From positions 186,001-250,000 of the forward strand of contig NZ_JQZV01000003.1 in the NCBI RefSeq assembly GCF_000769115.1: DNA of 64,000 nucleotides, read 5' to 3'. Positions 2,093 to 63,577 of this stretch are shown piece after piece. The DNA is from Porphyromonas canoris. Lineage in GTDB: Bacteria; Bacteroidota; Bacteroidia; Bacteroidales; Porphyromonadaceae. The notes beneath the pieces were generated by a model that made no database searches, was not told the origin of the DNA, and was given only the letters and a program-made list of their open reading frames with translations. Position 1 is the stretch's first letter. Every line of letters begins with the position of its first letter. The position numbers and the translations under genes are program-made.

Positions 2093-2426
2093 GACCGATT
2101 TCCTTTATCTGTTTTCTACCTCCCATCTAACGCAAGGTCGCTGTTCAAACTTGTTTGTTTTTTCTCTTTTTGAACGGATATAAAAGTTTCATTTATTACA
2201 TTCAGATCTTTCCTTGGACAGGTTAAAAACCCCGAATAAAGGCTTGGCTTTCAGATGTCAAGGCTTGTTTTGTACAAACCGGCCTTTGATTTGGAGAAAT
2301 CAAAGCTTGGTTTGAAGATTTTCTAAGCTTTAGACGTTTTTCTTTATAGGTTTAGATTCTTTTGTTATAACGTTAAATGAGAAGATTCTTCGTGCCAAGA
2401 AGAGAGTGGGATTGAATGGAATATGC
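2093..2426. other. Intergenic stretch holding the first 21-bp-unit array
   Basis: No credible gene is seen between comF and the downstream promoter. The stretch is A/T-rich and contains an ACAGGTT motif near 2219, then the five-unit 21-bp array listed separately at 2233-2337, then a TATAGGTTTAGA-like flank. Similar flanks border the other array copies. Confidence 0.6.
2233..2337. repeat. 21-bp-unit palindromic array, copy A
   Basis: Five consecutive 21-base units start at 2233, 2254, 2275, 2296 and 2317. Each is a degenerate form of nnnnTCAAGGCTTGATTTnnn. The best units are the second and fourth; the fifth is diverged. The core is an 11-base near-palindrome. It lies in the gap between comF and the next gene. 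The same architecture recurs in four other intergenic gaps of this window. Confidence 0.75.
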
Positions 2427-2434
2427 TATATTTG
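2427..2434 (+). promoter_or_regulatory. -7 box TATATTTG
   Basis: It matches the Bacteroidota sigma-factor -7 consensus TAnnTTTG and lies 24 bases upstream of the ATG at 2458. It sits inside the upstream extension of the open frame, so it argues for the start at 2458 rather than 2416. Confidence 0.6.
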
Positions 2435-2457
2435 CATACAAAAGAAACATCACTCTA

Positions 2458-3234
2458 ATGGATTTGCAAACTGCGGAGAGTAAGTTGGTCATCATTCCAA
2501 CGTACAATGAAATAGAGAATATTGAGAACATCATTCGGGCTGTAATGGGTCTTGAAGGAGATTTTCATGTTCTTGTCGTGGATGACAACTCTCCTGACGG
2601 AACAGCCGGTGCCGTTAAACGGGTACAGGGAGAGCTTGACGGAAGACTCTTTCTTCTTGAACGTCCGGGAAAACAGGGGCTTGGAACCGCCTATTTGGCA
2701 GGGTTCGATTGGGCATTGAAATCGGGTTATCATTACATCTTTGAGATGGATGCCGATTTTAGTCATAACCCTCTTGATCTCCTTAAACTCTATCGTGCAT
2801 GCGCTTATGAAGGTGCCGATGTGGCTGTCGGATCTCGTTACTGCAACGGAGTGAATGTTGTAAACTGGCCTCTTGGACGAGTATTGATGTCCTATTTTGC
2901 TTCTGTGTATGTGAGGATGATTACCGGATTGAAGGTGAACGATACCACTGCCGGATTTGTCGGTTACAGGCGAGAAGTGTTGGAGACAATGGAACTTGAT
3001 AAGATTCATTTCAAAGGATACGCTTTTCAGATAGAAATGAAATATACCGCCAAGCTGTGTGGCTTCGATATCCGAGAAGTACCTATCATTTTTGTCAATA
3101 GGGTCTTGGGTACCTCAAAGATGAATACTTCCATCTTTGGAGAAGCGTTCTTCGGTGTACTTAAACTTCGCTACTGGGCTATGACACGGAAGTATCCGCA
3201 GAAGAAAAAGAGGCTTGCATCTTCTAACAGATAG
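2458..3234 (+). CDS. Polyprenol monophosphomannose synthase-like glycosyltransferase (GT2)
   Basis: A family 2 glycosyltransferase of the dolichol-phosphate mannose synthase type, which moves a sugar from a nucleotide donor to a polyprenyl phosphate carrier. The N-terminus carries VIIPTYNE and VVDDNSPDGT; the metal/donor motif is EMDADFSHN. RPGKQGLGTAYLAGF and GSRYCNG are family signatures. There is no C-terminal membrane anchor, as in the short, single-domain bacterial Dpm1 form. The frame extends to 2416, but I chose 2458 because a -7 box overlaps the extension. The protein is 258 residues. The downstream porin gene starts only six bases after the stop. Confidence 0.88.
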   Translation: MDLQTAESKLVIIPTYNEIENIENIIRAVMGLEGDFHVLVVDDNSPDGTAGAVKRVQGELDGRLFLLERPGKQGLGTAYLAGFDWALKSGYHYIFEMDADFSHNPLDLLKLYRACAYEGADVAVGSRYCNGVNVVNWPLGRVLMSYFASVYVRMITGLKVNDTTAGFVGYRREVLETMELDKIHFKGYAFQIEMKYTAKLCGFDIREVPIIFVNRVLGTSKMNTSIFGEAFFGVLKLRYWAMTRKYPQKKKRLASSNR

Positions 3235-3240
3235 CTCTTT

Positions 3241-5298
3241 ATGCAGACAAAATACTTTTTCCGGACGATAAGTCATACGAGATATATTCTCTTTTATACG
3301 GTTCTGTTCTTTTTATCTTCTCTATCTCTCCATGCGCAGCATAAGGAGAAGATGGACGAGAGAGAGCATGCACATGATGAGGTAGACCTGAATGAGGACA
3401 GCGATAGAGACCGCCATGGCAATCTCTTTGCCTACTACCTCTCTTCACATTTAGGGGACAAAAGAGTGGCTCCTCTCGATACTCTAAAGATAGGATGGTA
3501 TAGAAGAGCCATCGTGGAAGGGCGTACCATTGCTTCCGGATATGCCGGCGGGACATATGCATCGCCGTATTTCTCAAAATCTTACTTTTCTCCCAATTCC
3601 ACCACACTTCTCTTTCCGTTCTACAATCCCTATTTTTATCTGTTGCGTTCGGGGATAGAGCAGAAGTGGTTCGATACCAAAGTTCCTTATACATCTTCCA
3701 GTTATGCAAAGTCGGGCGGCAGTAGTTCGGAGGAGAGTAACTTTCATACTCTCTTTAGTATGAATCTCGGTAAAGAACTTAATCTTGGAGGGTTGTTCGA
3801 CTACGACTATGCCAACGGACAGTACGCATCGTCCAAGAGTAAAAACATCACTTATCGGATATTTGCCAACTACGAGGGCGACAGGTATAAAGCCTATGCT
3901 TCTGTTGGAAACACTAATATAGTACACTTTGAAAGCGGAGGTATAACGGAGGATAAGTACATTACCAATCCGAAAGAGTTTACTTCGGGGCGCCGTTCAT
4001 TCCTTCCAAAAGATATTCCGGTAAAGCTGCAACGTACCTGGAATAGGAATATCTTCTCGGAAGCGCGCTTTCATCACAGATATAGTTTGGGTATCACAAG
4101 AAAAGCACCTACGGAAAAAGACTCTCTTAAAAGGGAATTTGTCCCCGTAACAACCATCTTCAATGACTTCACTTACAACAGACACAGACGCCGTTTTGTG
4201 TCTCAGATGTCGAATATTACCGAGATCTACAAAAAGCAATATCTCCCTAAGACGGAAGAAGCTAAGTTCTATCCGGATGAAGAACACATTGCAGAATCTT
4301 ATGGTGGTACGGTCGGTATCGCTCTGGAAGAGGGTTTCCACAAGTGGGCAAAGATGGGATTGGCAGGATATATAAGGTATCAGTACGACAGTTATGTTCT
4401 TCCTCCGATGATTCCGGAAGGCGAACAAAATCCTCAAATAACTCCTTACAAAACGGATGAATCTACCACTTATGTCGGTGCAAGGCTATCTTCTACCAAG
4501 GGGAAAAGGTTTACTTACTATCTGAGTGGGGATCTGGGTACTGTGGGTGCTTATGCCGGAAACTTATCTGTGGATGCAGAAGCACAGTATGCCATATCCA
4601 TTGCAAATAAAAGACACGTTGTACGACTTTTCGGTGAACTAAGAAACGAACGTACACCTCTTATATTAAGAAGGTTCAGCAGTACTTTCAATCTCTGGGA
4701 AAACAGCTTTAATCCGGTACAAAGACTTCGATTGGGAGGAGAACTTTCTATTCCTTTTACTTCTACCAGGATTAAAGCAAATGTCGAGACAATCCAAAAT
4801 CCAATCTATGTCGGTTCGGAAGGAGTACCTGCCCAATTGAATGACAATTTTAGGGCAATAGGCGTGGAGCTTGAACAGAACTTGAAGCTTGGACCTTTCC
4901 ATTGGGACAATATGGTAGAGTATCAGTATCTGAGCAATGACAAGATATACCAATATCCGTCTCTAATGGCGTATAGCAATCTGTACGTTCAGACCGTTTT
5001 GGCAAAGGTATTGACTCTGCAACTGGGAGTAGATGCTTATTGGCATACAGCCTACAAGGCTCCGTACTACGAACCATCCACTCAGCTTTTGGTGCCTCAA
5101 AACGATATAACGATAGGGGGAGGAGATGCGGTACACATGAATGCTTATGTAAGTGCACACCTTAAAAGAGCACGCTTTTTCTTGACCTATTACAATGTGG
5201 GAGCGTTATTCCTCGATCCGAAATACTTCTCTCTTCCACACTATCCGACCTATCCTCCTATGTTGAGACTGGGAGTGATTGTGGACTTTAGAAACTAA
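3241..5298 (+). CDS. Putative outer-membrane porin (Porin_10 type)
   Basis: This resembles the Bacteroidota 'putative porin' family (Porin_10). It has an N-terminal hydrophobic signal segment ending LSLHAQ, followed by an acidic/histidine-rich region at about residues 35-60 (HKEKMDEREHAHDE and similar). The long remainder alternates short aromatic strands with glycine/asparagine turns, and the chain ends in a terminal barrel-like strand RLGVIVDFRN. At 685 residues it is normal for the family. The substrate is unknown. The His/Asp/Glu-rich N-terminal stretch could bind metal, but this is speculation. The gene appears co-transcribed with the glycosyltransferase before it and the binding-protein-like gene after it. 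Confidence 0.75.
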   Translation: MQTKYFFRTISHTRYILFYTVLFFLSSLSLHAQHKEKMDEREHAHDEVDLNEDSDRDRHGNLFAYYLSSHLGDKRVAPLDTLKIGWYRRAIVEGRTIASGYAGGTYASPYFSKSYFSPNSTTLLFPFYNPYFYLLRSGIEQKWFDTKVPYTSSSYAKSGGSSSEESNFHTLFSMNLGKELNLGGLFDYDYANGQYASSKSKNITYRIFANYEGDRYKAYASVGNTNIVHFESGGITEDKYITNPKEFTSGRRSFLPKDIPVKLQRTWNRNIFSEARFHHRYSLGITRKAPTEKDSLKREFVPVTTIFNDFTYNRHRRRFVSQMSNITEIYKKQYLPKTEEAKFYPDEEHIAESYGGTVGIALEEGFHKWAKMGLAGYIRYQYDSYVLPPMIPEGEQNPQITPYKTDESTTYVGARLSSTKGKRFTYYLSGDLGTVGAYAGNLSVDAEAQYAISIANKRHVVRLFGELRNERTPLILRRFSSTFNLWENSFNPVQRLRLGGELSIPFTSTRIKANVETIQNPIYVGSEGVPAQLNDNFRAIGVELEQNLKLGPFHWDNMVEYQYLSNDKIYQYPSLMAYSNLYVQTVLAKVLTLQLGVDAYWHTAYKAPYYEPSTQLLVPQNDITIGGGDAVHMNAYVSAHLKRARFFLTYYNVGALFLDPKYFSLPHYPTYPPMLRLGVIVDFRN

Positions 5299-5316
5299 CA
5301 CAAAATCTTAGAAGCC

Positions 5317-6162
5317 ATGTCCAACAGATATATTCAAGTAAACAAAGGAGGGCGAAATGCTCATTTGCGTTTACCTATTCTTTTAGGTGTTGCTCTTGTT
5401 CTGCTTTTTGGTTTTGGTGGATATAAGTTGTTTACTCTGTTATCGGAGAAGAAAGCCGGTGCTGATGATGAAAATATTCGTATCGGAGTCGTTCTCTCTC
5501 CACAGGATATATCCATAAAGGGAGACTCTCTTTCCGGTTTACAGGTTGAGCTTATCAAGCTTTTGCCTAAGATGGATAAGGATTACAAGATAGTTCCATA
5601 TACATCTCATGCAGAGTCTTTGGATGATCTCAAGAGTAACCGTTTGGATATACTTGCCACTTCTTACCTGACAATGCTTGATAGTAGTGAGGATTTCATT
5701 TATACTCGTCCTGTCTACTCCTCCTCCTATGTCCTTATGCGACATATCCCGGATGGCGATAACATTTCTCCTTTTACATTGGATAGCTTGAGAGGGAAAG
5801 AGATCAGCGTACCAAGTGGCTTCCCTGCAATGGAGGTGTTAATAAGTCACCTCTCTCAAGAGAGTATTCCTGATCTTCAAATCCGTCAGACAGAAGAGAG
5901 TCAGGAAAAGCTGATTCGCTCGGTTTCAGAAGGAGTTCTCGCTTACGTCATTTGTGAGAAAAATATTGCCGGATCTTATGCGGCAAAACTTCCCAACTTG
6001 GTTATTGATACAGATGTCAGCTTTTTGCTTAAACATACTTGGGTTCTGAACATAGGCCAGGAGAAGTTGAAGGCAAATCTCGACTCTGTTATCTCTTTGG
6101 CTTATACAAAAGGAACGTGGACGGAAGTTGTTCAACGTTACGGCATGCTACCTACACTTTAA
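5317..6162 (+). CDS. Membrane-anchored solute-binding-like protein (SBP_bac_3 type)
   Basis: One N-terminal transmembrane segment (about residues 20-42, LLGVALVLLFGFGGYKLF) is followed by a domain resembling family 3 periplasmic solute-binding proteins: IRIGVVLSPQDIS, SGLQVELIKLL, LDILATSYL, and then PVYSSSYVLM. This is the same fold as the N-terminal half of the lytic transglycosylase MltF, but no transglycosylase domain follows; the protein stops at 281 residues. No ABC permease or ATPase gene is adjacent, so a transport role is not supported. It may be a sensor-like or cell-envelope protein. It lies 18 bases after the porin and 15 bases before the helicase start. Confidence 0.7.
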   Translation: MSNRYIQVNKGGRNAHLRLPILLGVALVLLFGFGGYKLFTLLSEKKAGADDENIRIGVVLSPQDISIKGDSLSGLQVELIKLLPKMDKDYKIVPYTSHAESLDDLKSNRLDILATSYLTMLDSSEDFIYTRPVYSSSYVLMRHIPDGDNISPFTLDSLRGKEISVPSGFPAMEVLISHLSQESIPDLQIRQTEESQEKLIRSVSEGVLAYVICEKNIAGSYAAKLPNLVIDTDVSFLLKHTWVLNIGQEKLKANLDSVISLAYTKGTWTEVVQRYGMLPTL

Positions 6163-6177
6163 TCTCTGAACTTGATA

Positions 6178-7524
6178 ATGGAGAACGATATAGAAAATAG
6201 TATAGAAAATACATTTGATCAGTTTGATCTTAATCCGAATGTGATGGATGGTTTGGAGGCTATGAACTTCAAAGAACCATCACCAATACAAAAGCTGGCG
6301 ATCCCTGTTATCTTGGACGGGGATGACCTTATTGCCTGCGCTCAAACGGGAACAGGAAAGACAGCAGCCTATGTTCTTCCTCTTTTGAGCATGCTTGCAG
6401 ATGGAGATTTTCCTAACAATAAGGTCAACGCAGTAATTATGGCTCCTACACGAGAGCTGGCTCAGCAGATAGATAATCAGATACAGGGCTTTGCTTACTT
6501 TGTTGATGTTTCCGCAACGGCAGTATATGGAGGAACCGGCGGAAGCGAGTGGGAACAACAGCGAAGAGGTCTCGCCATGGGTGTAGATATTGTTGTCGCT
6601 ACTCCCGGAAGGTTATTATCGCATCTCAATTTCGAGGCTGTGGATCTCTCTCAACTGAGTTTCTTCATTTTGGATGAAGCGGACAGAATGTTGGATATGG
6701 GCTTCTACGATGATATTATGCAGATATTTGAGCAGTTGCCCAAAAGCTGTCAGATCATAATGTTTTCGGCAACAATGCCTGCTAATATACGTAAGCTTGC
6801 GGCAAATATTATGAAGAATCCGAAACAGATAAATATTGCCATATCAAAACCTCCGACATCCATAGATCAGAGAGCCTATATCTGCTACGAGCCTCAAAAG
6901 CTTCCAATCATTCTCCAGCTCTTTAAGGAACACACTCCTAAAAGGAGTATCATATTTGCTTCTTCCAAGGAAAAGGTGCGCCAACTCTCTACAACCCTTT
7001 CCCGAAAGCATATAAAACTGTGCGAAATGCACTCCGACCTCGATCAGTCAAAACGAGAAGAGGTGATGAGAGACTTTAAGAACGGTAAGATAGATCTTTT
7101 GGTCGCTACGGATATTGTGGCTAGGGGAATAGATGTAGACCAGATAGAGATGGTCATCAACCTTGATGTTCCGAGAGATCCGGAAGACTATGTACACCGT
7201 ATTGGCCGTACAGCAAGAGGAGATAATGACTATGGCATTGCCATTACTCTTGTCGGACAGGATGAGCAAAACGAATTTTACAAGATAGAACGCTTTCTTG
7301 AATACGAGGTAAAAAAGATCCCTTTGACACCTGATTTAGGTGAAGCCCCCGTATATGCCCCTTCCACGGAGCGCTCCAAAGCGAGACGAAAAACGTACAG
7401 AAAGCAAACAAACAGAACACAACAAGGGCGTAACACCCATAAAAGAAACGATGATAAAAGAACTGGACACAACAAAAATAGATCACCTAAGAGAAAAGAT
7501 AGAAGGAATAAAGAGAACGGATAA
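6178..7524 (+). CDS. DEAD-box ATP-dependent RNA helicase (RhlE-like)
   Basis: All helicase motifs are intact: Q motif FKEPSPIQKLAIP, Walker A AQTGTGKT, PTRELAQQ, DEAD in ILDEADRML, SAT in MFSATMP, the RGIDVD motif and HRIGRTAR. A basic, low-complexity tail of about 60 residues follows, as in RhlE-type enzymes that remodel ribosomal and mRNA structures. I place the start at ATG 6178 rather than the TTG two codons before it. The product is 448 residues. The 3' end overlaps the following DHH phosphoesterase by 74 bases, so the basic tail is encoded in the same DNA as that protein's N-terminus. Confidence 0.92.
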   Translation: MENDIENSIENTFDQFDLNPNVMDGLEAMNFKEPSPIQKLAIPVILDGDDLIACAQTGTGKTAAYVLPLLSMLADGDFPNNKVNAVIMAPTRELAQQIDNQIQGFAYFVDVSATAVYGGTGGSEWEQQRRGLAMGVDIVVATPGRLLSHLNFEAVDLSQLSFFILDEADRMLDMGFYDDIMQIFEQLPKSCQIIMFSATMPANIRKLAANIMKNPKQINIAISKPPTSIDQRAYICYEPQKLPIILQLFKEHTPKRSIIFASSKEKVRQLSTTLSRKHIKLCEMHSDLDQSKREEVMRDFKNGKIDLLVATDIVARGIDVDQIEMVINLDVPRDPEDYVHRIGRTARGDNDYGIAITLVGQDEQNEFYKIERFLEYEVKKIPLTPDLGEAPVYAPSTERSKARRKTYRKQTNRTQQGRNTHKRNDDKRTGHNKNRSPKRKDRRNKENG

Positions 7525-8473
7525 GGTTGCTATCATTACTCATGTTTCACCGGATGGTGATGCCGTAGGTTCTTCATTGGGGCTGTATCATGTTTTGAAA
7601 AACAAAGGGATAGAGGCGGATATTATTTTCCCTTCCAGATACCCCGAAAGTTTCAGCTTCCTTGCAGATTTGGAGATACATACCATTGCTAAAGAGACAC
7701 CGGAAAAAGCTTCTCGCATATTGGAAGAAGCGGATATTATATTCTCTCTTGACTTCAACGATCCGTACCGTACAGCCGAAATGTCCGATAGCCTTTGCCG
7801 TTCAAAGGCATATAAGATTCTTATCGACCATCATTTGGATCCTGCCGATTTCTCGGATTTGGTCTTTTCCTATCCGACTGTTTCCTCTACCTCTCTTTTG
7901 ACTTACACCATTTTATCTCTCTGCGGATACAAGGAACTTTTTACGCTGGATGCCATAACCTGTTTCTATGTAGGTATGATGACTGACACGGGAGGCTTTT
8001 CTTACAACTCCAATGATCCGCATATCTATACCGTTTTATCCGAAATGATAGAGCTCGGATTGGATAAAGACGATGTGTCGGCTCGTGTAAACAGAGGCTA
8101 TTCCATAGATAAAGTAAGGCTTAATGCCTACGCTGTCTCCAACAATCTTACGGTTTTGCCGGAGAAAAAGACAGCCATAATCACACTTTCAAAAGCAGAG
8201 AAGAACAGATTTAACTACAAGATAGGAGACACGGACGGGCTGGTCAATGTTCCTCTTGAAGCAAAAGAAATTCTGTTCTCGATCTATTTGTACGAGCAGT
8301 CCAACTTTATTAAGCTCTCTTTCCGATCCAAAGATCCTTTTGCGTGCAATCTCTTTGCTTCATCCTATTTTTCGGGAGGAGGACATAGAAATGCTTCGGG
8401 TGCCGAGTTCTACGGAACTTTAGAAGAGGCTTATCAAGAGGTTCTCAAAGCATTAGAGAAGATGCATCCGTAA
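7451..8473 (+). CDS. DHH-family phosphoesterase (NrnA-like oligoribonuclease / pAp phosphatase)
   Basis: The DHH/DHHA1 motifs are in order: THVSPDGDAVGSS near residue 27 (metal ligands), FSLDFND, the DHH triad in ILIDHHLD, GMMTDTGGF, and the C-terminal GGGHRNASG of DHHA1. Such enzymes degrade nano-RNA and dephosphorylate 3'-phosphoadenosine 5'-phosphate. The frame extends upstream to 7340, but that part is only the helicase tail in another frame. I chose ATG 7451, just before the conserved domain. The protein is 340 residues, the usual length. Its overlap with the RNA helicase implies a shared transcript, which fits a joint role in RNA turnover. Confidence 0.88.
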   Translation: MIKELDTTKIDHLREKIEGIKRTDKVAIITHVSPDGDAVGSSLGLYHVLKNKGIEADIIFPSRYPESFSFLADLEIHTIAKETPEKASRILEEADIIFSLDFNDPYRTAEMSDSLCRSKAYKILIDHHLDPADFSDLVFSYPTVSSTSLLTYTILSLCGYKELFTLDAITCFYVGMMTDTGGFSYNSNDPHIYTVLSEMIELGLDKDDVSARVNRGYSIDKVRLNAYAVSNNLTVLPEKKTAIITLSKAEKNRFNYKIGDTDGLVNVPLEAKEILFSIYLYEQSNFIKLSFRSKDPFACNLFASSYFSGGGHRNASGAEFYGTLEEAYQEVLKALEKMHP

Positions 8474-8482
8474 TATTTTTAC

Positions 8483-8490
8483 TACCTTTG
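8483..8490 (+). promoter_or_regulatory. -7 box TACCTTTG
   Basis: It matches TAnnTTTG and lies 51 bases upstream of the DUF4827 start, directly after the DHH gene. Confidence 0.55.
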
Positions 8491-8540
8491 AAAGGAATAG
8501 TGAACAGACAGATTATTTAAGCAGACCATTACGATATATC

Positions 8541-9149: not shown

Positions 9150-9150
9150 A

Positions 9151-10637: not shown

Positions 10638-10684
10638 AAGAGATTGGAATGTAAATTTGTTTGAACATTCCAATCTCTTTTTGT
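10638..10684 (+). terminator. Intrinsic terminator after glmM
   Basis: A 15-base stem (10638-10652 with 10665-10679) is followed by a T-rich tail. Confidence 0.85.
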
Positions 10685-10723
10685 ATTCACGTTAATAAAA
10701 ACGGCTAAACCTGTTCGGAGATC

Positions 10724-10828
10724 GAAATCAAGGCTTGATTTTGTGAAATCATGTCTTGTCTTGGAAAAATCATGCCTTGATTTACGCAGTTCAAAGCTTG
10801 AATTTTACCAATCAAGCCGTGATCTTTT
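10724..10828. repeat. 21-bp-unit palindromic array, copy B
   Basis: Five units start at 10724, 10745, 10766, 10787 and 10808. This is the clearest copy: four units keep TCAWGnCTTG or close, and the first is TCAAGGCTTGATTTT. It sits between the convergent ends of glmM and mfd. A CTAAACCTGTT flank is upstream, and TTAACGTTATAA follows downstream; a similar TTATAACGTTAA follows copy A. Confidence 0.8.
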
Positions 10829-10881
10829 TTCCTGAATCGGCTCAGAGCATCTTTTTAACGTTATAAGATCGTTTTGTATAG

Positions 10882-13800
10882 CTATTGAGAAAGTAATTGA
10901 TCCAACACAGAAGAGGCTTCCTTGATGCTTTCGATTGTCGGAACTATCAGTAATCTTTTGTTGCCAACCTGCTTGAACTGCATCTTTCGTTTGATAAGAA
11001 TCGGACTCGATAAGATTGCAGAGAAAGTCTCAGACCGGTAGAACGGGCTTTTTTCATCGGAGACAAACTGCATATTCATTCTGTTGCCTTTTAGTACAAT
11101 CTTCTCCAAACCGAGTGCCTTACCCTTCCATTTGATCAAGATAAGCTCCAACAGGTTCTCCGCTTCCGGTGGTAACTTGCCGAATCTGTCCAGCAATTTT
11201 TCCGTATAGATACGGAGAGAGTCATGGTCGGTAAGGTCTTCCAGCTTTCGGTACAGGGCAAGCTTTTCCTGGTCGCCGGGTACATAGTCGTCCGGAAAGT
11301 AAGCATCAAAGTCTGTTTCTATGATGGTCTCTTTCACATACTCTTTGTTGCTCGATGAGGAGTAAGCTTTCACCTCCCCAAATTCTTCGTTTCTGATTTC
11401 GCCGACAGCCTCTTCCAAGATCTTCTTATACGTTTCGTAGCCTATATCTGCAATGAAGCCGCTCTGTTCTGCCCCAAGCATATTTCCGGCTCCACGTATG
11501 TCAAGGTCTTGCATGGCGATATGAATGCCACTGCCCAAATCCGTATAAGAGGTTATCGCTTCCAGTCTCCGGACTGCTTCGGGAGTGAGATACTCTTTGG
11601 GTGGAACCATCAGATGGCAGAAAGCTTTCTTATCACTTCTCCCGACTCTCCCTCTAAGCTGATGCAGATCACTCAGTCCGTATCTGTGCGCATCATTGAT
11701 AATGATGGTGTTGGCATTGGGAACATCTATACCATTCTCTACTATCGAAGTGGCTAAAAGGAGATCATAGCGATGATCCACAAAGTCCATAAGGATTTTT
11801 TCTACCTCTTTCGGAGCCATCTGTCCGTGTGCAATACCTATTCTGATGTCGGGTACTGCACGTACGATGTCCGATGCAATATCGTTCAGATTGTGTATTC
11901 TGTTGTGAACAAAAAAGATTTGTCCTCCTCTTGCAAGCTCAAAGTTGATGGCTTCGGCAATATTCTCTCCATTGTATGTAGATAGTTCCGTATAGATCGG
12001 ATGCCTGTTGGGTGGGGGAGTTAGAATATTAGACAGGTCTCTTGCTCCCATTAGAGAAAACTGCAAAGTACGCGGAATGGGTGTGGCTGTCAGGGTCAGC
12101 GTATCCACATTGGCTCTCAACTGTCTCAGCTTTTCCTTTACGGAGACACCAAACTTCTGCTCTTCGTCTATGATCAGAAGCCCAAGATCCTTGAAGATAA
12201 CCTCTTTCCCTACCAGCTTATGAGTACCTATGATGATGTCTATCTTGCCTTCTTTCAGTCCGGTTAGTATGTCTCTCTGCTCTTTTGCCGACTTTGCTCT
12301 GGAGAGGTATGCAATATTCACGGGAAAGTTTTTCAGCCTTTTCTTAAATGTCCTGTAGTGTTGATACGCCAGTACGGTCGTTGGTACCAAAACAGCTACC
12401 TGCTTATTGTCCGTAGCCGCTTTGAATGCAGCACGTATGGCTATCTCGGTCTTTCCGAAGCCTACATCTCCACAGACAAGACGATCCATAGGTACGGGTT
12501 GTTCCATGTCGTGCTTCACTTCGGCAGTTGTCTTCTCCTGATCCGGTGTGTCTTCGTACATGAAAGAGCTTTCCAACTCTTCTTGCAGGTAGGTATCCGG
12601 CGAAAAAGCAAATCCCTTTTGCTCCATACGGGAAGCGTAAAGCTTGATAAGATCACGGGCAATATCTTTAACCTTCTTCTTTGTTGTCTCTTTCAGCTTT
12701 TCCCAAGCACCGGATCCGAGTTTGCTCAAAGCCGGAGGTGTATCGCTCTCTTTGGATTTGTATTTGGAAAGATGGTGCAGAGAGTGTATGCTTACATAGA
12801 TGCTGTCTCCTCCTTTATAGTTTACACGGACGTACTCTTGCCTTTTCCCGTTCTGCTCCATAGTGAGAAGCCCGGCAAACTGTCCTATGCCATGATTGAT
12901 GTGTACGACATAATCCCCGAAGCTGAACCCCTGAATATCTTTTATGGATAGGGTTGCCACATTTTGCTTGATGCGGTCGGCTTTGGTCTTGTATCTGTGA
13001 AATCTTTCAAAAATGGAGTGATCCGTCAGAAGAACAATGCGTGTCTCGTGATCTATAAATCCGGCATGCAGAGTGGGTGTAACGGATGAAAAATGGGTGG
13101 AAGCACCTTTCTCTTGAAAGATATGGGTTAGTCTTTGAAGCTGGCTTTCCTGTCTACTCATGATGTAGACCGTGTAACCATTCTCCTTTTGATACTTCTC
13201 AACCTCCTCTATAAGCCTATCAAACTGTTTATGGTACAGTGGTTCGGGATTTTGCTTAAAGGAGATACTCTTCCATAAATGCCGTTCTTCTGCGGGGATG
13301 AAACCCGAAAGAATAGTTTTCTTTTCCCCTAAAAGATGTTCAAACTGCCCCGGAGAGATGAGAAGTTCTTGAAGCTCTTTTTCTGTCTTTATGCTGTTGC
13401 TTTCCGGATGTACAGGCTTACTCTCATACAACTCTTGTAGTGCATTGTGCAGCTGTACACTGTTTTCTATGAATATGATTGTGTCTTCCGGCAGGAGATT
13501 CAGTATTGCCTCTCCGTGTGTTATCGTCTCATTGCTGATAGGGGGAGTGATAACGGCTTTCTCTATCTTCTCTATGGAGCATTGATCCACGCAGTCGAAT
13601 GTACGGATGCTCTCTATCTCATCATCAAAGAAGTCTATCCGCACCGGATACTCGTAGGCAAAAGAGAAGATGTCTATCAGGCTTCCGCGAACGGCAAACT
13701 CCCCCGGAGAGTAGACGTAGTCCGTTTCGTTCATTCCCATATTCCAGAGTACCGTCCGCAGATGAGCTCTGTCGATGGTATCGCCTACGCTTACTTCCAT

Positions 13801-15647: not shown

Positions 15648-15658
15648 AACTCTCTTTT

Positions 15659-15703
15659 AACCTGTCCGAATATTGTAATAAACAGGTTTATTTTTCTCTT
15701 TTA
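15659..15703 (+). terminator. Possible terminator after the CapA-like gene
   Basis: AACCTGT near 15660 can pair with ACAGGTT near 15682, and a TTTATTTTT run follows. The stem is short, and the motif also belongs to the flanks of the 21-bp arrays. Confidence 0.4.
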
Positions 15704-15718
15704 ATCTGTTTGGAGTTG

Positions 15719-15823
15719 CAAATCAAGTCTCGCTTTTTGGAACTTGCGGCTTGATTTCCGGTTTTCAAGTCTCGATTTCTCCGATTCAGGTCTTGATTTC
15801 TAATATTATCAAGCTTTAGAGCC
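15719..15823. repeat. 21-bp-unit palindromic array, copy C
   Basis: Five units start at 15719, 15740, 15761, 15782 and 15803, each a variant of TCAAGTCTCGATTT or TCAGGTCTTGATTT. The fifth, TATCAAGCTTTAG, matches the diverged fifth unit of copy A (TTCTAAGCTTTAG). It lies between the CapA-like gene and rplY. The rest of this 418-base gap holds the rplY promoter and leader. Confidence 0.78.
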
Positions 15824-15975
15824 ATTTCTAAACGTATTCAAAGCTATTTATGATCGTGTTAAGAAGAAAAATGATCCCTGAGAAGATGTACCATGCTGGT
15901 ATATAGACGTTTCTAAGATCTCGTTCGTGCCGAAAGTTCTGGCGTATGATGTTTTTCATTCTCACGGAAAAGCAT

Positions 15976-35582: not shown

Positions 35583-35742
35583 ACTGAAGGTTGAAGAGCT
35601 ACTCCATGAGATAGTTATCTTTAGCCTTTTTTGTTTGTCTGTACTGACCCTTTTGCTTGAAGATGGTTTCCTTCTTTTTGTAGACAGGTTTAGAAAATAT
35701 CCTGTACCTGTTCACAGATATTGTTTATCGTATTCAGAGGTG

Positions 35743-35847
35743 TAAATCAAGGCTCGATTTGTGCAAATCAAGGCTTGAAACATAAGAATCAAAGCATGAG
35801 AGCTAGAAATCAAGTCTTGAATTGCAGAGTTATCAGGCATTACACGA
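35743..35847. repeat. 21-bp-unit palindromic array, copy D
   Basis: Five units start at 35743, 35764, 35785, 35806 and 35827. Four keep AATCAAGGCTYG or close variants; the fifth is diverged. Upstream are GACAGGTTTAGA and ACCTGTTCA, and downstream AAACAGGTTAAGAG, the same flank words as in copies A-C. It sits between tRNA-Tyr and udk. Confidence 0.78.
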
Positions 35848-35966
35848 TTATTTATCCGGCTTAAATATATTTTATAAACAGGTTAAGAGCAAGTTTGCTA
35901 CCGGAGAGAAAACAAAGTAGGGACGGTTGGCAAATGGTCCGAATTGTGTACGCTTCTCTTTTTTTT

Positions 35967-48494: not shown

Positions 48495-49316
48495 CTAAAT
48501 TTTTGTGGCTAATAAAAAAAATTTTTGTGGTCAAGAAAAAAAAGTTTTGTGGCCAAGAAAAAAAGTTTTGTGGTCAAGAAAAAAAAGTTTTGTGGTCAAG
48601 AAAAAAAAAGTTTTGTGGCCAAGAAAAAAAGTTTTGTGGCCAAGAAAAAAAGTTTTGTGGCCAAGAAAAAAAAGTTTTGTGGCCAAGAAAAAAAAGTTTT
48701 GTGGCCAAGAAAAAAAGTTTTGTGGCCAAGAAAAAAAATTTTTGTGGCCAAGAAAAAAAAGTTTTGTGGCCAAGAAAAAAAAGTTTTGTGGCCAAGAAAA
48801 AAAATTTTTGTGGCCAAGAAAAAAAGTTTTGTGGCCAAGAAAAAAAATTTTCGTGGCCAAGAAAAAAAATTTTCATGGGCATAGAAAAAATTTTTCATGG
48901 GCATAGAAAAAAATTTTTATGGGCATAGAAAAAATTTTTCATGGGCATAGAAAAAAAATTGTGTAGGCATGAAAGAAAATTTTTGTAGGTACAAAAAGTA
49001 TTTTCTTTAGCATAAAAAATATATTTACATAGGCATAAAAAAATATTTTCATGCTTATGAAAAGAAGTTTTTGTGCGTTTTAGAGTTTATTTTTATGCTG
49101 TAGAAAATAAGTTTTCATCCGAACAGAAAAATTTTTTCGTCAGAACAAAAAATAATTTTTATACGTATAAAAAGAAATTTTTGTCCGAAAGAAAGAGAAT
49201 TTTTGTCCGAAAGAAAGGGCATTTTTATAGGTAAGGAAAAAAAATTTCTGTACGTACGAAAAAAAATTTCTGTACGTACAAAAAAATATTTGTGTACGTA
49301 CAGAAATTTCGTTGCC
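48495..49316. repeat. 22-bp-period tandem array (about 38 units)
   Basis: Units of about 22 bases repeat without a break from near 48495 to near 49316. In the left half (17 units, about 48500-48860) the unit is nearly identical: an A-run, TTTTGTGGCCAAGA, and so on, with 21-23 base steps. From 48860 the inner ten bases change stepwise (ATGGGCATAG, TGTAGGTACA, ATACGTAT, TGTACGTACG) while the A-run/T-run and the 22-base step persist. All reading frames stay open on both strands because of the period, which gives false ORFs of 102-141 residues. It lies between two convergent gene ends. Confidence 0.95.
49156..49173. other. Perfect 18-bp palindrome inside the 22-bp array
   Basis: TTTTTATACGTATAAAAA is a perfect palindrome in one of the diverged units. 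Neighbouring units (for example CTGTACGTACG near 49248) are near-palindromes. Confidence 0.75.
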
Positions 49317-52506: not shown

Positions 52507-52522
52507 ATATATCTATATGGTA

Positions 52523-57023: not shown

Positions 57024-57081
57024 CAACCGAAAACTACATGGATAATGGTAGCTTTAGTACAATTAAATCACATACAAAACA

Positions 57082-57735: not shown

Positions 57736-57778
57736 TTATGTAGTATCTAAAATCTAAACACTACTTTTTAACAATAAA

Positions 57779-57827
57779 AAGAGCCACTCTCAGCATCATT
57801 TGGAGCTAAGAATGGCTCTTTATTTTT
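57779..57827 (+). terminator. Terminator-like hairpin between hmuY and hmuR
   Basis: AAAAAGAGCCA pairs with TGGCTCTTTATTTTT with a partly paired interior (CTCTCAGC/GCTAAGAA). It probably ends most hmuY transcripts and lets some continue into hmuR. Confidence 0.65.
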
Positions 57828-57861
57828 CCCCTCTTGAGAAAGAGAAAAGAAATAAAAAGCA

Positions 57862-60042
57862 ATGATAAGCAGACTAAAAATAGCACTATTGGTTATACTA
57901 TCCACTTTTTGCATTGTTGCTGTGCAAGCACAAGTAGAGGTAAAAGGAGTGGTATTGGAACGAGAGGTTGAAAAGCCTTTGAATAATGTACGTGTCATCC
58001 TTAAGAAAAAAGGAGGGAAGATAGCAGGAGAAGTTCTGACCAACGATAAGGGAGAATTTGCTTTTAATCTTTCCGATCTTAAAAAATCAGATGTAAAAGG
58101 AGTCATCTTTACTTGCAAAGGATATGAGCCGGAAAGACTCTCTCTTGCTTTACTTAAGGATCTGACGAATCTCAAAATCTATATGAAGTCTCACACATAT
58201 CAGTTGGACGACCATGTGATTGTTACGGCTACTCGTACTCAACGCCATTTGGAACAGCTCCCGGTTCCTACACACATCATAGGACGTTCGCAGATAGAGA
58301 AAATTGTTCCCACTACAATGAATGAGCTATTCCTGTACACAATACCCGGAATAGAGCTAAGCGATCACGGCGGGGTTACCAGAATGAAGATTCAGGGATT
58401 GGATTCCAAATATACCGCAATCCTTATAGACGGAGAGGAGATGGCTGGAATGAGAAGCGGATCAGTGGATCTTTCCAGGCTCTCTCCGGATATGATAGAG
58501 AGAGTAGAGGTTGTTAAGGGTGCCGGTAGTGCTTTGTATGGTTCCAATGCCATTGCAGGGGTTATCAATCTTATTACCAAAGAGAATAGAAAACCATTCT
58601 CCTTCAATGCTTCTGTTGGCTCTTCTACTATCAAGCAACACAATGGTCATATTGGAGTCGGTTTTCGTCAGAAAAGACTCTCTAACCTTACATCTTTTTC
58701 CACAGGAGTAGAGGGAGGGTATAAGCTTTCCACCCAAAAAGAAGACGAGTCTCTGGATCTCTTCAAGAATACAATCTATCGTGCAGCTAACAGACTACAG
58801 TGGAAGCCTCTCGATAATGTCTCGATAAAGTGGAGTCTTTCAGGTAACACAAGAAAACAAGAGCTGAATGAATATTACAACGATAAGTATGATTATCTGA
58901 ATAATATGGTCAGCTTCAATTGGGGACTTTCAGAAAAGCATTCCATTCAAGGATCTTATAACACAGACTTTTCATTAAGACACCGTTTCTATCCTAAGAA
59001 AGAGACAGATAATAAACTCTTCTTGTATAAGAATATCAAGCACATGGCGAAAGCAATGTATGCTTTTTCAGATAAGAAGATAGGAGATTTGAACATCGGT
59101 GCAGAAGCAAACAGCGAGCTTATAAACTCTTATCAGATTGCTGAAAACAAGGAAACCAAAAAGCTTGGATATTTCGTTCTTTACGGGCAGCATTTATGGA
59201 GCCCATCAAAGCATTTCCAACTTCTATATGGTCTGCGTTCAGACATTCACTCTGCCTATGGTACTCATCTGAGTCCAAAGATTTCTGCTTCTTTATCTTA
59301 TAATAATGTCAAGATGCGTCTCGGCTATTATGAGGCATTTAAGTCTCCAACGGCAATGGAACTCTATTTCAATTGGAGTCATTTAGGACGTTTTTATATT
59401 TTGGGAAACCCGAATCTCAAACCGGAAACAGCAAGACAGATGTTGGTTAACTTGGAGTGGAATCATAAACATACATTGAGTATAAATAGTGGAGTAACAC
59501 ACACAAGGTTTAAGGACAGAATCGTGTTGAGAGCAAAGAGCAATAATGACCAGTACTATGTCAATATCGATGACACAAGCAGTATGACCGTTGCCGATGC
59601 TCAGCTGACATGGAGACCGGTTAATGGGCTTACTTTCTCTTTGAACTATCTCTACACTCACGATCCTCAGTATGTTACCATGGATGGTAAAGCTTACAAG
59701 ACTTCTCTCACTCGTCCACACAATATACTTGGAAGCATTAAGTGGTACAAGGCTTGGGCTCATCACAGTTTGAGTGTAAATTTGATGGGGCAATACTACT
59801 CCGGCATAGATACCAACATAGAGGGGCAAGATCCGGCAACTAAAGCTCCGAAAATGGTGCCTATTAAATATGAAGGATTCCCGACAACACGTTTAGTTGT
59901 TACAGAAACTTTCCTACAACGTTATAGCATAACCTTAGGAGTAGATAATATTATTGCTTACAAACCTCGAAGCATTAATTTCCAAAATGCTTCTTTTTCG
60001 CCGGGTCGTGTCTTCTTTACAAGATTGGCATATAACTTCTAA
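57862..60042 (+). CDS. hmuR: HmuR-like TonB-dependent haem receptor
   Basis: A signal peptide (residues 1-23, ending VQAQ) precedes a carboxypeptidase-regulatory-like domain (about 25-110), then the plug (TATRTQRHLEQLPVPTHII, GAGSALYGSNAIAGVINLITK) and the barrel. The haem-receptor signature region is present as YEAFKSPTAMELY and NPNLKPET, analogous to the YRAP/NPNL boxes of P. gingivalis HmuR. It has 726 residues, ends FTRLAYNF, and is linked to hmuY, so haem uptake is the supported role. Confidence 0.88.
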   Translation: MISRLKIALLVILSTFCIVAVQAQVEVKGVVLEREVEKPLNNVRVILKKKGGKIAGEVLTNDKGEFAFNLSDLKKSDVKGVIFTCKGYEPERLSLALLKDLTNLKIYMKSHTYQLDDHVIVTATRTQRHLEQLPVPTHIIGRSQIEKIVPTTMNELFLYTIPGIELSDHGGVTRMKIQGLDSKYTAILIDGEEMAGMRSGSVDLSRLSPDMIERVEVVKGAGSALYGSNAIAGVINLITKENRKPFSFNASVGSSTIKQHNGHIGVGFRQKRLSNLTSFSTGVEGGYKLSTQKEDESLDLFKNTIYRAANRLQWKPLDNVSIKWSLSGNTRKQELNEYYNDKYDYLNNMVSFNWGLSEKHSIQGSYNTDFSLRHRFYPKKETDNKLFLYKNIKHMAKAMYAFSDKKIGDLNIGAEANSELINSYQIAENKETKKLGYFVLYGQHLWSPSKHFQLLYGLRSDIHSAYGTHLSPKISASLSYNNVKMRLGYYEAFKSPTAMELYFNWSHLGRFYILGNPNLKPETARQMLVNLEWNHKHTLSINSGVTHTRFKDRIVLRAKSNNDQYYVNIDDTSSMTVADAQLTWRPVNGLTFSLNYLYTHDPQYVTMDGKAYKTSLTRPHNILGSIKWYKAWAHHSLSVNLMGQYYSGIDTNIEGQDPATKAPKMVPIKYEGFPTTRLVVTETFLQRYSITLGVDNIIAYKPRSINFQNASFSPGRVFFTRLAYNF

Positions 60043-60072
60043 TAAGCACTGCATTATATAACATTTGATCTG

Positions 60073-60107
60073 AAAGACTTGAGCACTCTGCTCAGGTCTT
60101 TTTCTTT
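60073..60107 (+). terminator. Intrinsic terminator after hmuR
   Basis: AAAGACTTGAGCA at 60073-60085 pairs with TGCTCAGGTCTTT at 60089-60101, then TTCTTTAT. Confidence 0.85.
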
Positions 60108-60325
60108 ATATAATGCTCCCCGCTACCCATTCTATTTTTAGATTTTATTTCAAATTAGCTCTCTGATTGATAGCGGTTTGACTGCAATTGAGTTTTTTAT
60201 TTCAGTCGTATTTATATATAAATAATCGTTGTTTTGCATACTTTTTCATCTTAGAAAACTAATTGATTTATTCTGTTTCTATATTCTTTTGCTTAATTAT
60301 TGTTTTGTGTCATCGGTTTTTTTGT
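60108..60325. other. A/T-rich intergenic stretch
   Basis: About 220 bases of strongly A/T-rich sequence before the promoter of the collagen-like gene. I see no gene, and no copy of the 21-bp array. Confidence 0.45.
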
Positions 60326-60333
60326 TAATTTTG
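60326..60333 (+). promoter_or_regulatory. -7 box TAATTTTG for the collagen-like gene
   Basis: It matches TAnnTTTG. The transcript would have a leader of about 95 bases. Confidence 0.45.
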
Positions 60334-60386
60334 CGTCGATTTGGTTAATCAACCATTCAAAATTATATTTATTAAACAAACTGTAT

Positions 60387-60426
60387 GTCGAAATCTCTTT
60401 TTTATATTTTCGACGCTTTTTTATTT
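60387..60426 (+). promoter_or_regulatory. Terminator-like hairpin in the leader of the collagen-like gene
   Basis: GTCGAAA at 60387-60393 pairs with TTTCGAC at 60108+300 (60408-60414), followed by GCTTTTTTATTT. It ends just eight bases before the start codon, so it could attenuate transcription or mask the start. Confidence 0.45.
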
Positions 60427-60434
60427 ATTTAGAT

Positions 60435-61826
<1,392 letters not shown>

Positions 61827-61866
61827 TTTCTGACATCCGTTGATATTTAACTATAAAACAAAGATT

Positions 61867-63042
61867 ATGTCATCACTAAAATATATATTACTTTCCTCTT
61901 TGCTCGTTTTCTCCATTGGAGTATCGGCTCAGGAGTCCGGTATGAAAGAGTCTGCCGGTAAGGTGAATCCGAAAAAGAGTTGGGAGATAGGATTGGGAGC
62001 TGATGTTTTCAACATCAGTCGCATGAATTTTCACAGTTATCGCTCTTCTGCTAAAGGGGATGTTTACAATCTTGATCTCAGAAACATGATGATCGGGGGG
62101 AATATCTATTTGGCAACAGAGATCAATCCGTGGTTGTATGCGGACATCCAAGCGACACTCGGCTGGGCTAACAGCTTTTCTTCGGAAAAGATGAACCAAT
62201 ATAAGTTTTATGGAATGGGAGGATTGGGCGCGCAGTTTCGCCTAACCCCTCTCTTTAATAAAAAGTATGTTGAACCTTACTTCAGAATAGGAGCAAACTA
62301 TCTCTTCAAAGATTTTTATTTGACAAGAAGCGGAATGCTCCCCAACTTTCAGGGGGATAATCTGAAGTGGACTCACTCGGATGAGTTTAACAGCAAAGCA
62401 GATAATCAGAAGCATGCTTTCTTGGCATCTTTTGGAGTGGGTGTCAACAGCTGGTTCAATGACCGCATCGGCTTTGGACTTCAAGCAGATTATCTTACCT
62501 CTTTCACTAAGAGCAAGCTCAACTTCCCTCGCGTTCTCGCCAGAGTAATGTTCAGAATAGGGGAGACCAAAGAGGCTCCTAAAGTGATCTACCGAGAAAA
62601 GATTGTACGACAAATCGTAGAAAAACCGGTAGAAAAAGAGATCATCAAGTACGTGGAAAAAGAGAGCGAACCTCTCTATATGTTGTTTGCCAATATCAAT
62701 TTTGAATTTGATAAGTACGACATAACACCGGAGTCTGCAAAGATTCTTGATGATGCAGCTGTTATTCTTAAGAGAATGTCTCAGCATAAGTTCCTCATCA
62801 CAGGGCATACAGACAGCAGAGGTAGCGAGCGATACAACGAGGTACTATCTCGTAAAAGAGCTCAAGCCGTTGTTGAAGGCCTGCTGGAACGTGGTGTTTC
62901 TGCTGATATGCTTAAGAGTCGAGGCGTAGGCAAGAAGATTGCTGCAATGCCGGTTGCTAAGTCTCATATCATAAGAGAGGGAGACAGAAAGGTAACCATT
63001 GAGATTATCAAAAATATGGAGTATTGGAACAATCTTGACTAA
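61867..63042 (+). CDS. OmpA-family outer-membrane protein
   Basis: A signal peptide (ending VSAQE) is followed by an eight-strand-like barrel (about residues 35-235, for example KSWEIGLGADVF, MYGMGGLGAQFRL-like), a charged linker (KIVRQIVEKPVEKEIIKYVEKE) and a C-terminal OmpA peptidoglycan-binding domain: INFEFDKYDITPES, GHTDSRGSERYNEVLSRKRAQAV. It has 391 residues. It follows the collagen-like gene by 40 bases, so the two are probably co-expressed at the surface. I chose ATG 61867. Confidence 0.88.
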   Translation: MSSLKYILLSSLLVFSIGVSAQESGMKESAGKVNPKKSWEIGLGADVFNISRMNFHSYRSSAKGDVYNLDLRNMMIGGNIYLATEINPWLYADIQATLGWANSFSSEKMNQYKFYGMGGLGAQFRLTPLFNKKYVEPYFRIGANYLFKDFYLTRSGMLPNFQGDNLKWTHSDEFNSKADNQKHAFLASFGVGVNSWFNDRIGFGLQADYLTSFTKSKLNFPRVLARVMFRIGETKEAPKVIYREKIVRQIVEKPVEKEIIKYVEKESEPLYMLFANINFEFDKYDITPESAKILDDAAVILKRMSQHKFLITGHTDSRGSERYNEVLSRKRAQAVVEGLLERGVSADMLKSRGVGKKIAAMPVAKSHIIREGDRKVTIEIIKNMEYWNNLD

Positions 63043-63130
63043 TTCGGACATAAAACTCCGCAACCAATAGTAGAGCAATCTTATATCTGTTCTGTCCGAA
63101 GCGGAGAAACAGTTCTGTTAGAATCATTTT

Positions 63131-63170
63131 AAGAGAGGGTATCGGTTATGACCGGTACCTTCTCTTTTTT
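63131..63170 (+). terminator. Intrinsic terminator after the OmpA-family gene
   Basis: AGAGAGGGTA pairs with TACCTTCTCT, with TCGG/CCGG inside, then six T. Confidence 0.8.
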
Positions 63171-63172
63171 AT

Positions 63173-63472
63173 CTGCTTATTTTGCACTCTTCTGTCTGTC
63201 TGTCAAGATTGTATGGGATATAGGATTTTATCTTCCTCAAATGATTTGATCCCTCTCTTTCCGGCTGTTTATTCTCTACTCCCAAGCTCATGGCAAGACC
63301 AAAGAGAAGTGATAATATCTTGAGAAACGGATCATTTATTGGAGGACTAAGCCGCTTACTCTTCAAATTATTGTGCGGAAAATCTTCATCCGACACGGTA
63401 AGAAGTTTGATGATAGTGTTCAAAAACTTGGTTATCCATATTTACATTTAAGAGTAAACGGATTAAGAACTG
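63173..63472. other. Intergenic stretch without a gene
   Basis: Between the OmpA terminator and copy E of the array. Short frames on both strands lack any recognisable domain, so I call none. Confidence 0.4.
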
Positions 63473-63577
63473 TTTTTCAAAGCTTTATGAGCAAGACTCA
63501 TGGTGCGATTTGTGCAGGTCAAATTTCGATTTGCAGAAATCAATCCTTGAATTGTAATTCTTAAAGGATTAAGAGCA
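63473..63577. repeat. 21-bp-unit palindromic array, copy E
   Basis: Units start at 63473, 63494, 63515, 63536 and 63557. The TCA triplets are exactly 21 bases apart (63477, 63498, 63519, 63540). The sequence is the most diverged of the five copies, but the spacing is exact. It lies between the OmpA gene and the convergent partial gene at the right edge. Confidence 0.68.

Follow-up and report, generated by a model that had tools for sequence, protein, structure and literature searches.

The window, a 64,000-nucleotide stretch of the Porphyromonas canoris genome, contains five copies of a composite element in which a core of four or five 21-bp TCAAGnCTTGA units is bracketed by two sets of three 22-bp units (T-AACnnGTT-A), the right-hand set in reversed orientation. 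The 21-bp core palindromes are referred to here as A units and the 22-bp flank palindromes as B units. The element spans about 215 bases (212 or 233 bp in the five window copies), presents about ten short palindromes two DNA turns apart and is sited in intergenic gaps. In element 1, a core of four A units (2234..2313; units at 2234, 2255, 2276 and 2297) lies between three B units on the left (2168..2233) and three reversed B units on the right (2314..2379), the flank limits here and below being taken from an information-content profile of 59 elements. Element 2 bears five A units (10725..10825; 10725, 10746, 10767, 10788 and 10809) between flanks at 10659..10724 and 10826..10891, and a five-unit model scores 143 bits compared to 78 for the next best model. 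By eye, the left flank of this copy overlaps an apparent terminator of the upstream gene. The remaining elements return to four A units: element 3 at 15720..15799 (15720, 15741, 15762 and 15783; flanks 15654..15719 and 15800..15865), element 4 at 35744..35823 (35744, 35765, 35786 and 35807; flanks 35678..35743 and 35824..35889) and element 5 at 63474..63553 (63474, 63495, 63516 and 63537; flanks 63408..63473 and 63554..63619). The five arrays begin where an earlier note on this DNA had placed them and keep the exact 21-bp step that it described, while the words ACAGGTTTA and TAAACCTGTT, which it had seen to be shared by the flanks, are resolved by the profile as flank units, three per side. 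Between elements 4 and 5, which are 28 kb apart, another sequence family (AAAGTTTTGTGGCCAAGAAAAA and drifted units) forms a long tandem array of 22-bp units (48497..49306) with the same two-turn step.

Composition and sequence constraint

The profile was built from 64 located clusters, five of which comprised a single unit and were dropped. It carries a mean information of 0.52-0.57 bit/base in the three 22-bp blocks of each side, falling to 0.15 bit/base in a fourth block against a background of 0.03-0.08, so that the element has sharp edges; there are no fixed terminal bases, and information declines at the edges in register with the unit. Among 70 located elements, 54 have four core units, 14 have five and two have six, and all 53 copies collected from a sister species (G008) have four. 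A pyrimidine-purine step marks the center between neighboring core units in 138 of 162 P. canoris cases and 120 of 159 sister-species cases, a rule that does not carry over to G033, where such a step occurs at none of 61 spacer centers and AT at 52.

Copies share little beyond this skeleton. The mean pairwise identity of 44 four-unit elements is 0.504 (0.276 in a shifted control), their mean identity to the reverse complement is 0.499, and one pair of elements is 83% identical. The skeleton amounts to about 150 bits, with column information spanning 0 to 2 bits and an sd of 0.42, compared to a column sd of 0.12-0.15 in simulated uniform decay, at somewhat lower means. In the same 44 elements, arm pairing of the A units is not above that of shuffles (857 vs 876.7, sd 10.6) and that of the B units is below it (998 vs 1083.8, sd 16.7); this lack of covariation between palindrome arms makes an RNA hairpin unlikely. 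Between the two species, 28 orthologous pairs were recognized, of which the 19 with four units on both sides were aligned (L133 has weak neighbor evidence, and L024 and L215 align poorly) and the nine with five or six units left out. Skeleton positions of the 19 are 77.9% identical (n=2461) and free positions 64.8% (n=488), while their flanking DNA, which is partly coding, is 79.6% identical (n=6466), as conserved as the skeleton; flanks containing N were excluded from one flank analysis.

Distribution and spacing along the chromosome

In 854 kb of the P. canoris genome 41 elements were counted, and the whole genome is estimated to hold about 100. Allowing at most three mismatches, a two-unit 21-bp pattern matches the genome 125 times on the forward strand and 127 times on the reverse, and a reversed-pattern control has no match on either strand. 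When A-unit matches of at least 10 bits were counted over 454 kb, pairs within 100 bp lay at 21 (57), 42 (41), 63 (26) and 84 bp (3) and never at 19, 20, 22 or 23 bp, the steps against which the earlier note had asked that its 21-bp spacing be judged; because pairs occur only at the former distances, that spacing stands, and 21-bp pairs were absent from three shuffled sequences. A 226-bp profile recovered 27 elements in contigs C1 and C5, the same elements on which it was trained, at 32.6-157.2 bits, and the next best place in the 454 kb scored -73.4 bits, with nothing in between; no partial or half copies with a core were found in this DNA. The earlier remark that the arrays follow gene ends is true of all five window copies but not of the genome at large. 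With open frames of at least 100 codons as neighbors, 15 elements lie between divergent, 26 between tandem and 16 between convergent genes (57 of the 59 elements, two having no neighbor assigned on both sides). Other gaps of at least 220 bp in the 454 kb are similar (43 tandem, 18 convergent, 21 divergent), indicating no gene-orientation bias.

The positions of the element are largely shared with the sister species. Twenty sister-species elements could be mapped into the 454 kb, and 15 of these face an element here beside the same gene or genes, with matched flanking proteins about 72-99% identical; four of the remaining sites hold another 22-bp repeat, one is rearranged, and no clean empty site was found among the 20. 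Other Bacteroidales share the element plan. G031 and G034 carry the element itself, and two sister-genus species carry private palindromes with a step of 22 or 23 bp (446 unit matches in G015 and 262 two-unit matches in G012, with 0 or 1 in siblings). G033 contains near-identical array copies, as does P. canoris in a second family, repeat II (28 copies in 854 kb), which contains B-like 22-bp units; both are clearly amplified, so copying of arrays does happen. In an order-wide scan the exact core matched in 18 of 393 Bacteroidales genomes, with more than four matches only in P. canoris. The exact pattern also matched 86 stretches of GTDB contigs; by eye, part of the 80 inspected were coding or simple-repeat matches. 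Nine homologues of one flanking gene in distant Porphyromonas species were 60-66% identical, and their neighborhoods looked different. Among 2.9 million viral contigs, the exact two-unit pattern occurred in four stretches with one match place each, a chance-like result that gives no indication of a phage carrier with a putative binding gene beside the array.

Taken with two other 22-bp classes, the elements of P. canoris are evenly spaced. The 85 array sites in 854 kb have a mean spacing of 9.7 kb and a coefficient of variation (CV) of 0.50, compared to 0.92 for random intergenic gaps, and none of 4000 randomizations was as even; the main nulls were intergenic gaps, also restricted to gaps of at least 150 bp, and arrays less than 1 kb apart were merged for the joint spacing (17 to 16). 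The second 400 kb served as a test (n=39) and gave a CV of 0.51 vs 0.92, again with 0 of 4000 as even. The two other classes had been defined in the first 454 kb, and only the element positions in C5, not those of these classes, were known before the spacing test there. Cross-family circular shifts, whose null places sites anywhere and not in gaps alone, gave P values of 0.0003, 0.0047 and <0.0001. Regularity rises on pooling the families: single classes in the second 400 kb are not clearly even (elements, P 0.09; repeat copies, P 0.16), nor did a nearest-element test there reach significance, with 3 of 25 lying within 4 kb where the null gives 4.5 (P 0.28) and a P of 0.08 for the mean distance. 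Among the sister-species matches listed, none of 14 intervals is shorter than 4 kb (4.5 expected under a null likewise not confined to gaps, P 0.003). In G012, which belongs to another genus and has a private motif, an incomplete catalogue of 28 arrays in 400 kb was not significantly more even than the null (CV 0.85 vs 0.89, P 0.43; four intervals below 4 kb, 5.8 expected, P 0.25).

A putative architectural site and its alternatives

A fixed helical spacing, degenerate palindromes and a constrained skeleton are features of a composite protein-binding site, and from them we infer binding. The earlier note had offered a phased site for a dimeric protein as one of two possibilities, and such a site accords with most of the measurements, among them the fixed step, the bounded skeleton, the lack of arm covariation and of gene-orientation bias, and the central pyrimidine-purine steps in both species. 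We regard it as an evenly balanced proposition that the element is a composite site binding about ten dimers of a putative sequence-specific DNA-binding protein with an architectural function. Since A and B palindromes are two helical turns apart, bound dimers would sit on the same face of the helix, where they may form a wrapped or filament-like complex. A single dimeric protein could occupy all units, ribbon-helix-helix or small winged-helix proteins being possible models, and the DNA would presumably bend at the pyrimidine-purine steps that separate core units. Instead of controlling neighboring genes, the elements would act as chromosomal nodes about every 10 kb, whether as anchors of loops, boundaries of domains or sites that counter entanglement.

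The other possibility raised in the earlier note, a non-autonomous mobile family, has lost ground and appears rather unlikely; it would be a MITE or a REP/REPIN population spread by a trans-acting transposase and now old and diverged. High copy number, intergenic sites, a motif private to each species, the near-identical copies in G033 and repeat II and the one 83% identical pair are all in keeping with it, as is the resemblance of the terminal sets of three inverted 22-bp sites to MuA or TnsB binding sites. However, a transposase search that covered the Y1/RAYT type found no match in P. canoris (G000), G008 (89% complete), G012 or G015. The gap in profile scores, the absence of half elements with a core, ends that lack conserved bases, identity of only about 50% with information concentrated on the skeleton, and the 15 of 20 mappable sites held in common with the sister species also speak against it.

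Slightly more doubtful still is the view that the spacing and shared sites are by-products of arrays being tolerated in large intergenic gaps only, of later families arising from older arrays at the same site by amplification or conversion, and of recombination removing close pairs. It would account for the other 22-bp repeat at all four syntenic mapped sites without an element counterpart here, for the B-like units of repeat II, and for one sister-species element whose flanks lie at two places in P. canoris. Yet the main spacing tests already drew their nulls from intergenic gaps, the regularity is greater when families are pooled, and elements about 50% identical are probably too diverged for homologous recombination to have cleared neighbors.

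A transcribed RNA structure or terminator, with each palindrome forming a hairpin toward the 3' end of a transcript, is very improbable: the units are palindromic, all five window copies follow gene ends and one overlaps terminator-like sequence, but pairing is not compensatory, B units pair less than shuffles, and more than a quarter of the elements (15 of 57) lie between divergent genes. An Rfam scan of the window at gathering scores returned two tRNAs only. Coding heptad repeats (21 nt being seven codons) or chance A/T-rich sequence can practically be set aside, for although some distant pattern matches look by eye like coiled-coil genes and an open frame of at least 100 codons covers more than 30% of 6 of 27 elements, cover is below 30% in the other 21, the flank step of 22 is no multiple of three, and shuffles hold no 21-bp pairs.

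To return to the composite protein site, its even spacing in both the first 454 kb and the second 400 kb is what a lattice would display. As a tentative extension, Porphyromonas, and with it many Bacteroidales, might possess a chromosome-wide lattice of interchangeable two-turn arrays about every 10 kb, in which the places of the nodes are conserved and the sequence families and recognized palindromes replaced, a rapidly evolving, centromere- or insulator-like recognition system setting the size of nucleoid domains. The interchangeable families would be the three-four-three element, a 22-bp minisatellite and an amplified repeat. To our knowledge, mapping of bacterial chromosome-domain boundaries has revealed no obvious DNA code; if the arrays are nucleoid-lattice nodes, they would provide a sequence-defined, evenly spaced mark of such domains, one that keeps its geometry while the recognized DNA word differs from one sister species to the next. 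The element itself is rich enough in information to be readily found.

Comparison with known systems

Neither the three-n-three architecture nor the even spacing was found described in the open-licence literature searched. Another intergenic, high-copy repeat of the Bacteroidales is PINSR of Prevotella intermedia/nigrescens, described as 188 bp long, of unknown function, without terminal inverted repeats and associated with rearrangement, with 177 copies in one strain, 184 in another and about three quarters of sites common to both (PMC4755523). Compared by description, PINSR is defined by sequence conservation (PMC4755523), whereas the P. canoris elements have little in common beyond a skeleton. 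Closer in genus is BrickBuilt, a MITE/minisatellite of Porphyromonas gingivalis with 19 intergenic copies of 84 to 991 nt, a tandem unit near two turns (23 nt), terminal inverted repeats, and leader and tail segments (PMC4596501). Its published unit, AGAYCATARTATCCTCTCRTRTG, is another sequence than the units of P. canoris (PMC4596501), which are 21 and 22 bp long with other motifs, and the flanks here, though inverted relative to each other, have no fixed terminal bases and weaken in register with the unit.

REP, BIME and REPIN sequences are likewise short intergenic palindromes of high copy; as described, REPs carry a terminal GTAG or CGTC and, in single-stranded form, are the substrate of a RAYT (PMC3733652). 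In contrast, P. canoris has fixed two-turn arrays whose arms do not covary; only 11 of their 162 core spacers contain GTAG or CTAC, and no RAYT (Y1, PF01797) match was found in four array-bearing genomes. G031 and G034 also lack a match, and G007, G013, G014, G032 and G033 have one. In G015, whose core is CTACnGTAG, the GTAG lies inside the palindrome.

Noc, SlmA, MatP/matS, ParB/parS and the gyrase-binding BIMEs represent dispersed, mostly palindromic sites for architectural proteins, made of single palindromes or few units; we know of no two-class array, sister-species motif replacement or even 10-kb tiling among them. Plasmid parC/ParR, the met boxes of MetJ and iterons are cooperative multi-site arrays in which regularly spaced sites allow DNA to be bent or coated, and these systems, BldC included, occupy one or few loci each. 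BldC, as described, binds a direct-repeat array cooperatively, with several protein units on regularly spaced sites (PMC5859096). Set against these cooperative arrays, P. canoris presents a lattice of about 100 symmetric three-four-three elements.

Architecture and distinctness of the element

The five arrays that the earlier note described in the window as exact 21-bp repeats are real and keep that step, and each is the core of a composite site. Alignment of 59 elements of this genome on the first or last core unit resolves a left flank of three 22-bp units (TnTnAACnnGTTnAnAAnTT), a core of at least four 21-bp units (AAATCAAGnCTTGATTT plus 4) and a right flank of three 22-bp units in reverse complement; the element is bounded, information being near background past about 70 bp. 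The shared words noticed beside the arrays, ACAGGTTTA and TAAACCTGTT, are its 22-bp flank units. Among 70 elements located with full models, the core has four units in 54, five in 14 and six in 2. The 854 kb of contiguous sequence examined hold 41 elements, at unequal density (27 in a first set of 454 kb versus 14 in a second of 400 kb, on another contig), and scaling gives about 105 per genome. A pyrimidine-purine step is centred between core units in 138/162 cases, with TG, TA, CA and CG all occurring, a variety that suggests readout of DNA shape; such a step seldom marks the centre of a flank unit (12/324).

A profile trained on 27 elements from contigs C1 and C5 and scanned against the 454 kb of other contigs found 27 elements at 32.6 to 157.2 bits, with the next best real place at -73.4 and a maximum of -61.4 bits in Markov shuffles. 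In these 454 kb, core-unit pairs less than 100 bp apart occur only at 21, 42, 63 and 84 bp, and neither half elements nor flankless cores lie between true elements and background. Flank-like triplets do exist outside elements, chiefly within a second dispersed repeat (repeat II) and the 22-bp arrays.

In the same sequence, core palindromes standing alone outside elements number 9, about a quarter of the 40 to 42 core units in whole Markov shuffles, which suggests that selection may act against single stray sites; this scarcity may partly be general palindrome avoidance.

Relatives and other phased arrays

Within the genus, the element is carried by 2 of 12 genomes, this one and a sister species judged to be Porphyromonas sp. 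S15M_Sa_21, in which all 53 distinct elements collected have four core units and the step between core units is pyrimidine-purine in 120/159 cases. Twenty-eight of these were assigned to a located element in this genome. Alignment of the 19 pairs in which both members have four units gave identities of 77.9% at skeleton positions, 64.8% at free positions and 79.6% in the partly coding flanks; the remaining 9 have unit counts of 5:4 or 6:4, so core units are gained or lost whole between the two species. Other Bacteroidales carry the core, mostly in fours (6/8 in G031, 7/7 in G032 and 16/17 in G033, the last with 0/61 pyrimidine-purine steps between units), with one or two examples in each of six further genomes and a single three-unit example in Alloprevotella. 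In G031 and G033, the two of these genomes measured for flanks, information fades across three to four 22-bp blocks. A two-unit core pattern gave 6 to 147 matches, against none in the control, in 10 of 12 such genomes tested; G041 (4 matches versus 12 in the control) and G042 (1 match) are unconvincing carriers.

Phased palindrome arrays are a class rather than one motif. A motif-blind survey of 20 stretches from other Bacteroidales singled out two sister-genus species. One (G015; stretches L327-L352) has CGACCTACnGTAGGTCG at 23 bp, with 446 unit matches and 0 or 1 in each of six siblings; four units occur in 14 of 19 arrays examined, and flanks are only weak. The other (G012; L354-L365, L390-L409) has GACCnRTATnGGTC at 22 bp, with 262 two-unit matches and 0 or 1 per genome in the other 14 searched; among those listed, 11 of 16 chains have five or more units, and GACCAGTACTGGTC arrays at 22 bp are also present. 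L314 and L315 hold tandem arrays of 22, 23 or 41 bp, and in the remaining survey stretches no palindrome array rose above shuffles.

In the present genome, outside sequence that by eye is probably coding, almost every tandem array has a 22-bp period (one exception has 28 bp), and several sequence families are represented. One array of about 37 units at window positions 48497-49306 (AAAGTTTTGTGGCCAAGAAAAA, drifting to other units towards its right end) lies within the 28 kb that separate elements 4 and 5. Repeat II, a 22-bp grid of TAAACRYGTT units, is present 28 times in the 854 kb if the query is included (24 copies aligned), the others being 71-92% identical to the query; copies include L280 and L282 (C10:16498 and 41392), L285-L287 and L289 (C13), L292 and L294 (C14), L275 (C8:257750) and L370-L389 (C5). 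A search of 152 kb from the sister species, almost entirely sequence surrounding that species' elements, gave no match to repeat II. Separately, 27-bp repeats at window 60873-61153 lie within the open frame 60300-61826 and resemble, by eye, a collagen-like G-x-x protein segment.

Site turnover and chromosomal spacing

Of the 53 sister-species elements, 20 could be placed by their neighbours in the 454 kb. At 15 of these places this genome has an element too (9 matched by both flanks, 6 by a single flank within 1.8 kb), and at four the same gene is accompanied by a 22-bp array of another kind or by repeat II (two matched by both flanks, two by one). If about 15% of element-free gaps bear such a repeat (19/130 of at least 60 bp), chance would seldom give four substitutions in four (about 5 in 10,000, or about 2 in 1000 counting only gaps of at least 150 bp). 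For the last, L227, the flanks are split between C8:288603 and C8:340632; a long 22-bp array adjoins one of them, and the split may mark a rearrangement breakpoint.

Pooled over 854 kb, 41 elements, 28 repeat II copies and 16 tandem arrays have a mean spacing of 9.7 kb and a CV of 0.50, versus 0.92 for random intergenic gaps (0/4000 as even) and 0.88 for gaps of at least 150 bp. The second 400 kb, fetched as a test after evenness was seen in the 454 kb, gave 0.51 versus 0.92 (0/4000); element positions there were known beforehand, and only the positions of repeat II and the tandem arrays were new. Evenness was partly lost when the other families were displaced circularly relative to the elements, with sites not confined to gaps (first set P = 0.0003, second set P = 0.0047, both combined P <0.0001; tandem arrays displaced alone, 0.055, 0.032 and 0.004). 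In the second set, single classes were not clearly even (elements P = 0.09, repeat II P = 0.16) and the nearest-element test was not significant (P = 0.28). Among the sister-species matches listed, none of 14 same-contig intervals is below 4 kb, where uniform placement predicts 4.5 (P = 0.003). The 28 arrays in 400 kb of G012, whose array types are only partly catalogued, are not even (P = 0.43), which counts against a general lattice.

Nature of the element and known systems

The best supported reading, which we regard as quite probable, is a site for several dimers of a putative protein, phased at two helical turns. The spacing, the conserved sites and the lack of orientation bias in gene context (26 tandem, 16 convergent and 15 divergent among 57 elements) suggest that the element would act architecturally, as a chromosomal node; the whole explanation, binding site and node together, stands about evenly between right and wrong. 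A plain decayed repeat would fit poorly with column information spanning 0 to 2 bits; copies average 50.4% identity to each other and 49.9% to one another's reverse complement, the closest pair reaching 61%, leaving aside a single 83% pair. An RNA hairpin is unlikely, as the palindrome arms pair no better than shuffles. Flank-unit arms are complementary less than chance (998 versus 1083.8, sd 16.7, in 44 elements), as though perfect palindromes were avoided.

Ribbon-helix-helix proteins, MetJ and ParR being examples, have short half-sites and bind tandem sites, and are for these reasons offered as candidate models for the protein that may occupy the multi-dimer site. The element lacks the tested features of REP/RAYT and MITE families. 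Searches of open-licence literature listed no counterpart of the three-four-three plan or of the even tiling, and it is on this limited ground that the kind is regarded as new. The nearest published element found, as far as its description goes, is PINSR (PMC4755523), which may belong to the same class.
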